Assembly: GCF_902141855.1 (NCBI RefSeq)
Contig: NZ_CABFVH010000004.1
Span: 124,001-188,000, forward strand
Source: Methylobacterium dankookense
GTDB taxonomy: Bacteria > Pseudomonadota > Alphaproteobacteria > Rhizobiales > Beijerinckiaceae
Direction: 5' to 3'
DNA length: 64,000 bases
The position numbers were made by a program, and so were the translations under genes. Shown one piece after another: positions 47,635 to 52,375 of the stretch (position 1 is its first letter; the number at the start of each line of letters is the position of its first letter). Under the pieces are notes generated by a model. The model did not search any database. It was not told the origin of the DNA and saw nothing but the letters and a program-made list of their open reading frames with translations.

Positions 47635-48657
47635 GTGCGCCATGTCCTGACGATCCCCGCCCTCGGCCTTTCCCTCGGCCTCGCCCTCCTCGCGGGCACG
47701 GCGCCGCCGGCCGCCGCCCAGACGGCCGAGCCCCTCGGCATCGCGCTCGAGGGCTTCGCCTATCCCTATCCCGTCTCGTACCTGCCGCTCACCCGCGACG
47801 GCGAGGCGCAGCGGCTCGCCTATATGGACGTGGCGCCGCAGGGCAGCCCGAACGGGCGCACGGTGGTCCTCCTGCACGGCCGCAACTTCCCGTCGAGCTA
47901 CTGGGCCCCGGTGATCGCGGCGCTCTCCGGCGCCGGCTACCGGGTGGTGGCCCCGGACCAGCTCGGCTTCGGCAAGTCCTCGAAGCCGGTCGGGCCCTTC
48001 ACCTTCGACCGCATGGCCGCCGACACCGTGGCGCTCCTCGACGCCCTGTCGCTCCGCCGCGTCGACGTGGTGGCGCATTCGATGGGCGGGATGCTTGCCG
48101 TGCGGCTCGCCCGCAACGCGCCGGACCGGGTGAACAGCCTGCTCCTGGAGGCGCCGATCGGCCTGGAGGATTACCGCTTCAGCGTGCCGCCGGTGCCCGA
48201 TGCCGAACTGCTGAAGCGCGAGGGCGCGCTCACCGCGGAGGCCTACCGCAAGCAGCTGATGACGAGCTACGCGCTCTCGCTGCCCGAATCGGCGATCGAG
48301 CCCTTCGTGGAGATCCGCGAGCGGGTGAAGGGCTCGGGGGAATATCCGCGCTGGCTGCAATCCTTCGTGAATTCCTACCAGGCGATCTGGGGCCAGCCGG
48401 TGGTGCACGAGATCCCGCTGATCCAGGCCCCGACCCTGTTCGTGATGGGCGGCAACGACCACAACGCCCCCGGCAAGCCCTTCGCCCCGCCGGAGCTCGC
48501 CGCGACCATGGGCCGGAACGCCGAGCACGCGCGCACGCTCGCCACCCGCATGCCGAACGGGCGGGCCGAGATCTTCGAAGGGGTCGGCCATCTCGTCCAC
48601 ATGGAGGCGACCGACCGCTTCAACGCCCGGATGCTCGATTTCCTCGACGGGCATTGA
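47635..48657 (+). CDS. Secreted alpha/beta hydrolase
   Basis: A 340-residue hydrolase with a signal peptide (LTIPALGLSLGLALLAGTAPPAAA, starting at GTG after GGAG). Catalytic residues are Ser in VVAHSMGGML near 144, Asp in FVMGGNDHN near 265 and His in GVGHLVHMEAT near 322. The oxyanion motif LLHGRNFPSSYW is present. The substrate is unknown. A diverged copy of its last 18 codons lies at 52306-52362. A strong terminator follows. Confidence 0.9.
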   Translation: MRHVLTIPALGLSLGLALLAGTAPPAAAQTAEPLGIALEGFAYPYPVSYLPLTRDGEAQRLAYMDVAPQGSPNGRTVVLLHGRNFPSSYWAPVIAALSGAGYRVVAPDQLGFGKSSKPVGPFTFDRMAADTVALLDALSLRRVDVVAHSMGGMLAVRLARNAPDRVNSLLLEAPIGLEDYRFSVPPVPDAELLKREGALTAEAYRKQLMTSYALSLPESAIEPFVEIRERVKGSGEYPRWLQSFVNSYQAIWGQPVVHEIPLIQAPTLFVMGGNDHNAPGKPFAPPELAATMGRNAEHARTLATRMPNGRAEIFEGVGHLVHMEATDRFNARMLDFLDGH

Positions 48658-48696
48658 GCCGCCGGGCAGGTCCCTGAACGGCTCCCCCGAACGACG

Positions 48697-48756: not shown

Positions 48757-51700
48757 TCAGAACCGCCAGGTGAAGTTGCCCTTCACGGCATGGTCCTCGA
48801 TCCGGTCGCCGATCTGGCCGGTATAGGCGACGCCGAGGGTGGCGTTCGGAGCCACGCGCAGATCGAGGCCGGCCTGCGCGACCAGGGCGTCCCGGGCGAT
48901 CGGGATGCCGGCGGTCAGGAAGGTCGGGCCGTTGCCGAAGGACAGGAGCGCCGCCGGCACCACGTCGCCGAAGGCGCGGCGATAGCCGACGAGGCCGTGG
49001 GCCGAGACCGGCGCGCCGAGGCCGAGCTCCAGGCCCGTCTGGGCGCGCAGGCCCGCCGTGACCGCGCCCACGTCGTAGTCGCGGGCGAAGCTCGTCAGCG
49101 CGGCGATGCCGCCGGCCTCGACGAAGCGGTCGCGCCCGATCGAGACGTAGGAGCCGCCCACGAACGGCTCGATATAGGTCGCCGCCGCCTGGGCCGGACG
49201 CGCGCCGTCCTTCGCGACGAGCGCGGCCGGACCCGCCTGGCCGAGGAAGAACCGGTAGCCCAGCTCGCCGAAGCCCTGGATGGTCGAGCCGCCGGTGCGG
49301 GCGGTGGCGTTGTCCGAGAAGCCGGCGAACACCACCGAGCGGCGGGTGCGGATGCTGTTGTCGGCGTAGATCGCGCCGAGCCGCAGCGAGACCGGGCCGA
49401 TCTCGTAGCCGCCATAGACGCCGCCATAGCCGCTCTCGATCGTGGCCGATTGCAGCCGGCCCGTCGTGTCGAGGCTGGCCGAGGTGTAGCCGCCGACGAG
49501 GCCGAGCTTCAGCCCGCTCTCGAGCCGCAGGTCGGCGCCGAGCGCGAAGCCCGAGATCTGGCGGCTGAGGCCGGCCGCGTTGCCGTCCGAGCGCGCATCG
49601 CCGAAGCTGCCGAAGCCCTGGCCCCACAGGCCGAACACCGTCGGGTCGAGGATTCGGGCCGGCATCGCCACCACGGGGGCGGCGCGACCGGGCAGGTCGG
49701 CGGTGTAGGTGGCGGGCAGGGTGCCGTAGTTCAGGCCGTCGGCCGTGCCCGGGGTGGTGCCCCAGCGCAGCCGGTCGAGCACCGCCTCGCGCACGAAGAA
49801 GGCGGTGGCGTAGGCGGTGGAGACGGTGCTGGCATGCATGTCGCCCGAGAGCGCCTGGAAGGCGCCCTGCGCCTCGCCGGCCGTGAGGCCGACGGTGCGC
49901 TGGAACTGGGCGGTGGCGGGGCCGCCGGCCTGGATCGCGTCGGCCACCGAGGCCTGGTTGCGGTTCCGGGCGACGCTGGAGAACGCGATGTCGTTGCGCG
50001 TCAGGTTCAGGTCGACCTCGGTGGGGGTGTAGGTCAGGCTCGGGTCGAGGAAGGCGAAGTTCGCGGTCACGCCTGCGAACTGGCCGGTGACGCCGCCGGC
50101 GGCGGTGAGGATGGCGTAGCGGTTGCGCGGGGCGTAGGCGCCCTGGGCGGCGGTGACCTGCACCGTGCCGCCGGAGAGCGTGGCGCTGCCGCCGGCCGCG
50201 ATCCGGTCGGACTGGCCGGCCGCGTTGGCGTCGACCTGGAAGGCCGAGCCCTGCGCGAAGGCGACGTTGCCCGAGACGGTCAGCGTGCCGATGCCGCCCA
50301 TCCCGGCGCCCGGCGCCACCGCGCCGCCGCCGTTCACGACGAGGCCGCCCACCGTGCCGGTGCCCGCGAGCACGCCGGTGGCGCCGACGGCGACGGGGGC
50401 CGTGATCTGGTCGAGCGGGTCGAGGGTGAGCGTGCCGGTGACGTTCCCGAGATAGCCCGCCGCCGCGTAGAGGTCGATGCGGCTCCAGTAGCTCAGCGGG
50501 GTGCCGTAGAACGCCGCGAGCGCGTTGGTTTCGGTGTTCACGACGATCTGGTTGATCGTGCTGGTCTGCAGGGTGCCGTAGAGGCCGCCGTTCGGCGCGA
50601 GGGTGCGCGCGGCCTGCGTGCTGCCGCCGTAGATCGAGGCGAGCAGGATCGAGGCGTCGGGCCCGTTGGCGGGCGCCGCCTCGCGCGGGGCCTGGGCGAA
50701 GGTCAGGGTCGGCAGGCCGTAGGTCAGGCGGCTCTGGTAGAGCGCCTGGTTCGCGTCCGAGGGCAGGTAGGGGTTGCCCGCGGTGTTGGCCGCGCCCGTC
50801 GAGCAGGCCGCGACGGTGTTGCCGCACTGGGCCGAGAGATAGGCCTGCAGCTCGCCCTGCGCCCGCGTGAACAGGCCCGGCAGGTTGAGCGCCGTGCCGG
50901 TGGTCGCGGCGTTGTTGATGTAGGCCGGGTTGGTGAAGGCCTGCGCGAGGTCGTAGGCGCTGAAGGCGCGCGAGGCGATGATGTCGAGCGGGTAGTGCAC
51001 GCCCAGCACGATGCGGCTGTTGCCGTACTCGGCGCCGCGGGCCAGCATGCTCTGGTACTGGGTCGGCACCAGCATGGCGAGCAGGATGCTGTCCGTGAAC
51101 GCGTACTGCGTGTGGCCGCTCGGGAAGGACGCGTTGGTGGTCAGGCCGTTCAGCGCGGTCGGGTCGAAGATGGTGTAGCTGGTCGGCGCCACTTGGATCG
51201 GGCGCGACGAGCCGTACACGTTCTGGCCGGCCTGCGTGTTCGTGACGCCGTAGGCGAGGTCGTAGACGCTGTTGGCGGTGTTGGGCAGGCCGTTGAAGGT
51301 CGGCAGCGTGAAGCCGGCCGGGGCGACGGCCGGGACTGCCACGTAGCCCGCGGGCCGCGTGCTCGGGTTGGTCGCGGCGCCGTTGGCGAAGTAGTTCTTC
51401 GCGACGCCGAGATCGCTGCTCATCACCGAATAGGCGCTGTTCAGCAGGCTGAAGGTCCCGGCGAGCGGGCCGGTCGTCGCGGTGCTGCTGCGGATGCCGG
51501 TCTGGTAGATCGCGCCGAGCTGGGTGCCCAGGCCGCCCACCGGCTGGAGCGGGTTCAGCGTGCCCGGCTGGCCGGGATTGCTCTGGATCGCCTGGAGCGG
51601 CAGGCCGCCCGCGAGGTTGTCGCCCGGGCCGAGATTGACCACCGTGCCGTTCACGAGGGTGATCGAGCCGAGGAAGGGCGTGCTGCCCGGCAGGGCCTTG

Positions 51701-51942
51701 TCGCTGATCGCGAGCTGCCGCTGCGCGGTCGTCGCGCCCTGGTTCTGCGCGATGGCCTGCGACAGGTTGAGCTGGAGCGTCTGCCGGCCCACCGGCGTGC
51801 TGTTCAGCGCCAGGTAGGGTGACAGCAGGTTCAGAACGTTGACGTTGGCCGGCGTCGTGTTGACGGCCTGGGCCCAGGCACTGCCGGGCGCGCAGGCGGC
51901 CGCGGCGAGCGCCGCGACGGATACCCCGTGCTTGAACTTCAT
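48757..51942 (-). CDS. PAP2-phosphatase autotransporter
   Basis: A 1061-residue type V secreted protein. After the signal peptide (about 1-25), a PAP2 acid-phosphatase domain spans about 35-400, with RP at 247-248, SFPSGH at 272-277 and SR-x5-H-x3-D at 309-320 (His316, Asp320). The usual Lys seven residues before Arg247 is Gln here. A beta-helix stalk of Gly/Val repeats follows (about 500-640), then the C-terminal autotransporter beta-barrel (about 790-1061), ending in Trp-Arg-Phe as outer-membrane proteins do. The domain would be displayed outside the cell, releasing phosphate from organic esters. A PHO-box-like repeat lies upstream. Start: the only ATG opening a signal peptide. Confidence 0.9.
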   Translation of the reverse strand: MKFKHGVSVAALAAAACAPGSAWAQAVNTTPANVNVLNLLSPYLALNSTPVGRQTLQLNLSQAIAQNQGATTAQRQLAISDKALPGSTPFLGSITLVNGTVVNLGPGDNLAGGLPLQAIQSNPGQPGTLNPLQPVGGLGTQLGAIYQTGIRSSTATTGPLAGTFSLLNSAYSVMSSDLGVAKNYFANGAATNPSTRPAGYVAVPAVAPAGFTLPTFNGLPNTANSVYDLAYGVTNTQAGQNVYGSSRPIQVAPTSYTIFDPTALNGLTTNASFPSGHTQYAFTDSILLAMLVPTQYQSMLARGAEYGNSRIVLGVHYPLDIIASRAFSAYDLAQAFTNPAYINNAATTGTALNLPGLFTRAQGELQAYLSAQCGNTVAACSTGAANTAGNPYLPSDANQALYQSRLTYGLPTLTFAQAPREAAPANGPDASILLASIYGGSTQAARTLAPNGGLYGTLQTSTINQIVVNTETNALAAFYGTPLSYWSRIDLYAAAGYLGNVTGTLTLDPLDQITAPVAVGATGVLAGTGTVGGLVVNGGGAVAPGAGMGGIGTLTVSGNVAFAQGSAFQVDANAAGQSDRIAAGGSATLSGGTVQVTAAQGAYAPRNRYAILTAAGGVTGQFAGVTANFAFLDPSLTYTPTEVDLNLTRNDIAFSSVARNRNQASVADAIQAGGPATAQFQRTVGLTAGEAQGAFQALSGDMHASTVSTAYATAFFVREAVLDRLRWGTTPGTADGLNYGTLPATYTADLPGRAAPVVAMPARILDPTVFGLWGQGFGSFGDARSDGNAAGLSRQISGFALGADLRLESGLKLGLVGGYTSASLDTTGRLQSATIESGYGGVYGGYEIGPVSLRLGAIYADNSIRTRRSVVFAGFSDNATARTGGSTIQGFGELGYRFFLGQAGPAALVAKDGARPAQAAATYIEPFVGGSYVSIGRDRFVEAGGIAALTSFARDYDVGAVTAGLRAQTGLELGLGAPVSAHGLVGYRRAFGDVVPAALLSFGNGPTFLTAGIPIARDALVAQAGLDLRVAPNATLGVAYTGQIGDRIEDHAVKGNFTWRF

Positions 51943-52002
51943 CTCGATTCCCCTCGCCCTGTTCGGCGAGGTGCTGAATAGCCAAGTCGCACGGACGACG
52001 AC

Positions 52003-52024
52003 CTGTCATAATCCAGTCATAATC
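52003..52024. promoter_or_regulatory. PHO-box-like 11-bp direct repeat upstream of the phosphatase autotransporter
   Basis: CTGTCATAATC and CAGTCATAATC are adjacent 11-bp units, differing at one position. PhoB binds direct repeats of CTGTCAT every 11 bp. It lies about 61-82 bp before the autotransporter ATG, though the repeat reads in the plus direction, opposite to the gene. Confidence 0.55.
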
Positions 52025-52375
52025 TTCAAAGCTCATGGCTGTGCTTTCGGGGCAACGAGATTTGGTTTTAGTTAGCTAAATACGGAAACGTTCCGAAGAG
52101 AGCCGGGCGATCTGCTTCCGCCCGGGCCACGTGGCGGCGCCTAACCGTTCTCGATGTCGGATGTGTCGTGCCAAGACGTCACGAGCGCGTGATCGACCTC
52201 GAGAATGCGTGAGGCCGTAGACGCAGCGCCGCAGGATGAAGTCGGGGAACGGACTATCGGTCAGGCAGATCGGGCTGCGCCAGCGTCCTGGCTCCCGGTC
52301 GTCCCATGACTGCGACCGACCGCTTCAACGCCCAGAGGCTCGATTTCCTGGACGGGCACTGAGCGAGGGCACGAC
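52025..52375. other. Intergenic region with AT-rich promoter area and gene remnant
   Basis: This gap holds an AT-rich stretch at 52025-52085 (TTTGGTTTTAGTTAGCTAAATA), then GC-rich sequence. The only coding trace is the 18-codon hydrolase remnant at 52306-52362. Confidence 0.5.
52306..52362 (+). pseudogene. Displaced C-terminal fragment of the alpha/beta hydrolase
   Basis: The 57 bp encode MTATDRFNAQRLDFLDGH followed by TGA, matching the last 18 residues of the hydrolase ending at 48657 (MEATDRFNARMLDFLDGH) at 15 of 18 positions. Nothing upstream of it resembles the rest of the hydrolase. It is a remnant of a duplication or of a rearrangement. Confidence 0.8.

Follow-up and report, generated by a model that had tools for sequence, protein, structure and literature searches.

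A predicted PAP2 phosphatase autotransporter of Methylobacterium dankookense and the reversed 11-bp repeat conserved upstream of its gene

The locus described here lies in a stretch of 64,000 nucleotides from Methylobacterium dankookense (hereafter, the window; positions 124,001 to 188,000 of contig NZ_CABFVH010000004.1, assembly GCF_902141855.1). It comprises a reverse-strand gene at 48757–51942, identified as an open reading frame (ORF) with a 100% match in its own genome and coding for a PAP2 autotransporter of 1061 amino acids, and a tandem 11-bp direct repeat, CTGTCATAATC CAGTCATAATC, at 52003–52024, 60 bp upstream of the ATG. The repeat reads on the forward strand, opposite to the gene, just as the original prediction had it. 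That prediction, made from the sequence alone, took the protein for an acid phosphatase joined to a beta-helix and an outer-membrane barrel, and the repeat for a PhoB box (PHO box) inducing it under phosphate starvation.

At the protein level, the fusion of a PAP2 domain to a barrel was borne out by Pfam profiles, the sequence and the predicted fold. All its parts are encoded on the reverse strand. A Sec signal peptide, read by eye, covers residues 1–24 (51871–51942, cleavage at AWA/Q) and precedes a class A acid phosphatase-like helical domain at residues 29–373 (50824–51858), for which the all-helical fold of the class A nonspecific acid phosphatases (NSAP) was predicted; the PAP2-type enzymes among the 50 matches listed in the comparison were class A acid phosphatases. 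The profile search proposed as a check on the domain call returned PAP2 (PF01569) at residues 241–329 (50956–51222), with an E-value of 3.1e-11 and 43.6 bits against a cut-off of 27.2, a match that includes the PSGH and SRx5Hx3D motifs. Direct reading gives the catalytic motifs as QNVYGSSRP (Gln240, Arg247, Pro248), FPSGH (His277) and SRIVLGVHYPLD (Arg310, His316, Asp320). The beta-helix is present, but as a short strand-rich segment at about residues 504–650 (49993–50433) related to the Ssp autotransporter (8e7f), and the passenger is otherwise mostly helical. The autotransporter barrel occupies residues 769–1061 (48760–49638; PF03797 at residues 772–1041, E-value 3.1e-50) and has a helix before it, so signal, passenger and barrel follow the type Va layout. 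The protein is likely to be a cell-surface acid-phosphatase-like enzyme anchored in the outer membrane, with phosphate release as its probable function.

The PAP2 signature is K-x6-RP, then PSGH, then SR-x5-H-x3-D. Two of these three motifs are complete here and the first reads Q-x6-RP, so the full signature is missing; the lysine that the original prediction had reported as replaced is indeed Gln240 (codon at 51223–51225, reverse strand, placed by homologue comparison). We rejected a local mutation. Among 120 homologues listed, 119 carry Gln at this position and the remaining one fitted the pattern elsewhere, while PSGH occurs in all 120 and the exact SRx5Hx3D in 107. Across 47 aligned orthologues, Gln240, Arg247, Pro248, Ser275, Gly276, His277, Arg310, His316 and Asp320 are invariant and Ser309 is nearly so; Lys182, a conceivable substitute for the motif-1 lysine, is invariant too. 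Among the paralogues, the motif-1 residue is Ala in type B, Val in type E and Lys in types C and D. Gln240 is thus, as far as these alignments go, a fixed trait of the orthologues or their lineage; it lowers the claim of canonical catalysis and leaves the PAP2 profile and fold match intact.

Regarding the promoter, the repeat differs from CTGTCATNNNNCTGTCAT by one mismatch, and it is the sole single-mismatch match to that pattern in the window. At up to three mismatches the window holds four matches, compared with a shuffle mean of 1.47 (5 of 100 shuffles reach four), and none of 100 mononucleotide shuffles of the 250-bp upstream region matched as well as the true repeat. The original prediction named homologues lacking the repeat as its refutation, and the orthologues examined did not refute it: an element of the form TCATAAT-N4-TCAYAWT, reversed relative to the gene, was present in all 46 upstream regions scored. 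These were the window and 45 of 74 homologue loci, chosen for a match starting at residue 1. Fifteen other loci entered the comparison of paralogues and sister types and two (L055 and L066) served as outgroups; left unscored were L061, L067 and L068, where the 5′ part of the gene is missing, and the nine loci L070–L078, matched in their later part only. The best match lay on the reverse strand in 46 of 46, at 57–81 bp from the start codon except in L005 (146 bp). On a matrix of the element, 44 of the 46 scored 22.5–36.2, the 99.9% level of shuffles being 13.4; the two weak ones were L015 (12.7, with a period of 10) and L027 (7.4). Forward-strand scores never rose above 5.0. Since the matrix was trained on the same upstream regions that it scored, the genome scans described below and L013, which was outside the training set and scored 34.8, are the stronger tests. 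A chance look-alike of a PHO box was rejected by the orthologue conservation, the shuffles and the genome scans. A divergent gene served by the repeat was rejected as well: none was seen near the repeat in the window, and pit, where present, has its own box. In one genome the orthologue is present twice, at positions some 52 kb from each other (G052:C1, 1249774 and 1301917), with equal scores and a 10-bp period of the element in both.

Aligned on the repeat, 44 of these regions (effective number 23.9; L015 and L027 were left out owing to their altered spacing) averaged 1.3 bits per column within the repeat; the flanks gave 0.34 (upstream) and 0.45 (downstream). Two further conserved peaks emerged, tGTTgC...cAC upstream of the repeat and tTcgcTaa downstream. 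In the window, the upstream one corresponds to CGTTGC-N6-AGCACA (consensus TGTTGC-N6-GNNACA) at 52040–52057 on the reverse strand, 15 bp upstream of the repeat. The form TGTTGC-N6-GCAACA, a consensus read from these same sequences, scored a mean of 9.3 of 12, whereas a control stretch taken from these regions gave 6.5, and matches of at least 8 lay 14–16 bp from the repeat in 37 of 46. The downstream peak corresponds to a −10-like stretch, TTGGCTATT, at 51977–51985 on the reverse strand, one base out of register with the consensus and placed by the conserved columns anchored on the repeat. If that stretch is right, the gene-proximal half-site would overlap the −35 hexamer.

We compared the element with the PHO box of the genus, taken from 25 pstS promoters (without L113, which belongs to another family and has a weaker forward box, the weak matches L133–L136 and two matches without loci). 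These promoters present two or three GTCAT-type repeats (TGTCAT) in gene orientation with variable spacers. The PAP2 element shares with PhoB promoters the 11-bp direct repeat and the GTCAT core near the −35 region. It differs from them in being reversed in 46 of 46, where the boxes of pstS and of pit are co-directional with their genes, in its fixed AAT spacer (96–98%), in the lack of a conserved TG before TCA, and in having a second element upstream. The T of TGTCA reaches 88% in pstS boxes and 21% here, and the G of GTCA is sometimes T. On the pstS matrix, the PAP2 elements scored −35.1 to 11.3 and the pstS boxes 18.4–30.3; on the PAP2-element matrix, the pstS promoters scored −12.1 to 9.1. 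When core positions only were counted, the window copy scored 18.9, within the pstS range of 15.6–25.5, and it is one of five in 46 that reach at least 18. By this core score, the copy in the window is one of the few among the orthologues that resemble a PHO box. The low cross-scores and the distinct pstS boxes indicate that an ordinary PHO box exists in the genus and that the PAP2 element, judged by its sequence, is not it: it is either different or strongly modified. As for PhoB recognition, the period and the GTCAT core of the original prediction stood, and the spacer, the T of TGTCA and the orientation told against it. In the same genome, a PHO-like box (CCGTCATCGAACTGTCAT) lies co-directionally 55 bp before the polyphosphate kinase gene ppk (L103, near 6784), and similar GTCACAATCCTGTCAC stretches occur at L101 221 (contig C89, with urease genes about 440 bp further on) and L100 16075 (contig C21).

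The genome scans covered 59 genomes of the genus. The pattern TCATAATNNNGTCAYA gave 19 matches, one per genome (control pattern, 0), and all 19 lay upstream of PAP2 genes: 17 orthologues (60–100% identity) and two paralogues (31–32%). Allowing one mismatch, TCATAATNNNKTCAYAW gave 80 matches, 25 exact and 55 with one mismatch. Of the exact ones, 24 precede PAP2 autotransporters and the other precedes a 1688-amino-acid protein (L249, 233–5299) with phytase-like, PAP2, PATR and RTX calcium-binding repeat regions and the same promoter element. Because the exact element was found only before such genes, it is likely to be bound by a regulator dedicated to related, predicted exported PAP2-type enzymes. 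By a threshold of at least 64% identity over the main match, 27 of the 59 genomes hold 30 orthologue genes (an N-terminal fragment, G013:C13, was not counted), and all have the element in some form: 23 exactly, two with one mismatch, and five by matrix (27.1, 23.6, 19.1, 12.7 and 12.7). Among the one-mismatch matches away from PAP2 genes, the site TCATAAAACGTTCACAA/T recurs in six genomes (L170 1501–1517 and five others). In L170 it is reversed and about 45 bp before the gene of a His-rich protein of 98 amino acids, which has no Pfam match and probably bears a signal peptide, possibly a further target of the same regulator.

Among the paralogues, the element was found in both type B genes (27.5 and 32.8), in all five of type C (28.8, 27.5, 17.6, 12.1 and 11.5; three degenerate, the last two below the 13.4 level, and two assigned to the type by their N-termini) and in the one of type D (27.3, 109 bp from the ATG). 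Every copy in types A–D is reversed. None of the sister type E autotransporters has it. A midpoint-rooted tree built from 27 PAP2 domains, in which long branches were flagged, separated types C, D and E from types A and B and the soluble proteins. The distribution of the element therefore does not match any single supported group; on this tree the element is either old and lost in type E, or gained more than once. The type C autotransporter gene of L248 is preceded, on its own strand, by a gene for a PQQ-dependent dehydrogenase (L248, 7704–9518), and L247 has a similar layout.

The phosphate link of the original prediction is upheld indirectly, through neighbouring genes and related promoters. 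In 15 loci the divergent neighbour of the orthologue is a Pit transporter gene (PF01384 confirmed in L019). All 15 have a co-directional PHO-like box on the pit side (9.2–18.2), with p ≤ 0.005 and a distance of about 40–53 bp from the pit start in the 13 tested (L043 and L065 were left out for unsure starts). The pit box and the PAP2 element share one intergenic region and yet stay distinct. A PhnD relative lies downstream in eight of ten pit loci with full flanks, and L019 shows a row of a family-21 glycosyltransferase, TIGR03223, TIGR03308, PhnC and PhnD. Moreover, the type E autotransporters (1176–1215 amino acids) present forward PHO-like boxes 47–55 bp upstream in all seven scored (p ≤ 0.0035; L049 and L050 were left out for unsure start codons), and an outgroup orthologue from another family, L252, has one at 76 bp (16.3, equalled by none of 300 shuffles). 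This context supports a link to phosphate, at least on the evidence of gene order and motifs.

Putting these lines together, we lean, by a modest balance, towards a surface phosphatase for organic phosphate esters whose gene would be activated under phosphate scarcity through the reversed repeat. The passenger would be displayed on the cell surface by its autotransporter barrel and release phosphate from the esters; a response regulator of the OmpR/PhoB family would bind the reversed 11-bp direct repeat and activate transcription once phosphate runs short. We infer each of these parts: the surface location, the phosphatase activity, the activator role of the repeat, the identity of the regulator and the phosphate signal. 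Because both the spacer and the orientation are conserved, we favour a regulator that is not PhoB, or at least a specificity that departs from the PHO box of the genus. A more tentative extension, which we hold to be somewhat doubtful as a whole, is a second phosphate-scavenging circuit, in which a dedicated regulator would read a composite operator (TGTTGC-N6-GNNACA plus the reversed TCATAAT-N4-TCAYAWT) that marks exported PAP2 phosphatases of autotransporter or RTX type, with the sister autotransporters using forward PHO boxes instead.

The close rival has PhoB as the regulator: it would recognise the repeat as a PHO box in reversed orientation and activate the gene from the opposite strand. 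The 11-bp period, the shared (G)TCA(T/C) core, the near-identity of the window copy to CTGTCATNNNNCTGTCAT and the forward PHO-like boxes of the sister autotransporters, the divergent pit gene and the outgroup orthologue all speak for it. Salmonella PhoP belongs to the same regulator family as PhoB. A study on PhoP describes boxes in reverse orientation, direct repeats pointing away from the −10 as here, that activate from further upstream (PMC3335776); the same source reports that a PhoP box flipped at the normal place fails, and those natural promoters have another half-site and hold a second PhoP box. Together with a pstS-trained matrix that gives negative scores to 38 of the 46 elements, the near-invariant AAT spacer, the unconserved T of TGTCA, the constant reversal in types A–D and the separation of element and pit box within a shared region, this makes PhoB in reverse the less likely reading in our view, and we favour a separate regulator. 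Another regulator of the OmpR family could also read the repeat and answer a signal other than phosphate, such as envelope stress or a plant-surface cue. The half-site of TorR is similar to that of the element, the motif is distinct from the PHO box, and no phosphate gene was seen beside the gene in the window, where the ORFs were read by eye and the neighbours left unprofiled. However, the exact matches all precede PAP2 genes, and Pit and phn genes adjoin the orthologue in the loci counted above, so we consider a non-phosphate signal improbable.

The function of the passenger and the meaning of the conservation can be questioned as well. Gln240 might inactivate the enzyme or shift its chemistry, for instance to lipid head-group hydrolysis or vanadate-type oxidation, and the nearly universal Gln of the homologues, with Ala, Val or Lys in the paralogues, would fit this. 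The other catalytic residues are nevertheless invariant or nearly so, PSGH and SRx5Hx3D persist, and the PAP2-type enzymes listed as matches were class A acid phosphatases; a passenger that does not scavenge phosphate therefore receives little weight here. Finally, the repeat could be conserved merely for a role in the core promoter or in an mRNA leader, and not for binding a regulator. The half-site that would overlap the −35 hexamer speaks for this, but two copies at an 11-bp period and a second spaced element exceed such a hexamer, and the exact motif precedes no other gene type in the scanned genomes. We regard this as very improbable.

Several observations weigh against the surface phosphatase activated through the repeat. 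Gln240 could lower or change the activity. PAP2 genes follow only four of the 55 one-mismatch matches to TCATAATNNNKTCAYAW, the other 51 having no detected PAP2 gene nearby. Allowed at most one mismatch, the control pattern yields 24 matches, fewer than these 51, so the element may have further targets beyond PAP2 genes. The soluble PAP2 relatives of about 490 amino acids have the element in none of 20, and a forward PHO-like box (15.4) in two. Among 15 large paralogues (L303–L317), two have the element, seven –those of type E– a forward PHO-like box, and six (L303, L304, L308, L310, L316 and L317) neither motif where the called start would place it, several of these starts being uncertain. 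Only 15 loci have the pit neighbourhood, and the window is not among them; these loci probably come from a single group of related species and count as few events. As for the outgroups, L055 has a weak forward box (10.5, p 0.007) and L066 none (p 0.16). No response regulator appeared among the 25 largest neighbour clusters, based on crude ORF calls, and a conserved neighbour regulator was thus rejected at that level; MucR-family genes lie near pit in 14 loci (L019 2100–2576 and 13 more) and AraC-type genes in 11, all in one group. No expression or activity data were found.

The architecture itself is already known. MapA of Moraxella catarrhalis is an acid phosphatase autotransporter with reported activity, according to three reports (PMC5424252, PMC9289746, PMC3419190), and the one phosphatase autotransporter named in the available parts of two autotransporter surveys. 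Both proteins join an N-terminal class A acid-phosphatase-like passenger to a C-terminal barrel; the likeness is at the level of architecture, and the activity reported for MapA is predicted for ours. With PhoN, PhoC and the Escherichia blattae enzyme, the protein shares the predicted fold at residues 29–373, PSGH and SRx5Hx3D, and it differs by the Gln in place of the motif-1 lysine and by the fusion to the barrel. The fusion in this genus is present in databases under generic names. In the literature searched –partly, with few subscription journals covered– we found no PAP2 autotransporter of Methylobacterium and no account of the promoter element, its PAP2 link or the two promoter grammars; nothing on this protein appears in the parts seen of a paper on the secretome of Methylobacterium mesophilicum (PMC10673610) or of one on phosphate starvation in Caulobacter (PMC2996285). 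The new part is the promoter element.

Around the gene, a 60-nt direct repeat (88% identity) occurs at 48600–48659 and 52305–52364 of the window. It is the 3′ end of the downstream gene, alpha/beta-hydrolase-like by reading, recurring upstream of the phosphatase gene. The phosphatase gene thus lies between two copies of the repeat, which may stem from an insertion or a duplication.

Methylobacterium, then, holds a large family of PAP2 autotransporters, and the exact promoter motif was seen, across the 59 genomes, nowhere but ahead of PAP2 genes that carry export signals. Should the element prove to be read by a regulator distinct from PhoB, the genus would have, in addition to the Pho regulon, a second switch for phosphate scavenging, whose targets could be recognised from a single short motif. 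The paralogous phosphatase autotransporters of this one genus, with their two promoter grammars, offer a natural experiment.

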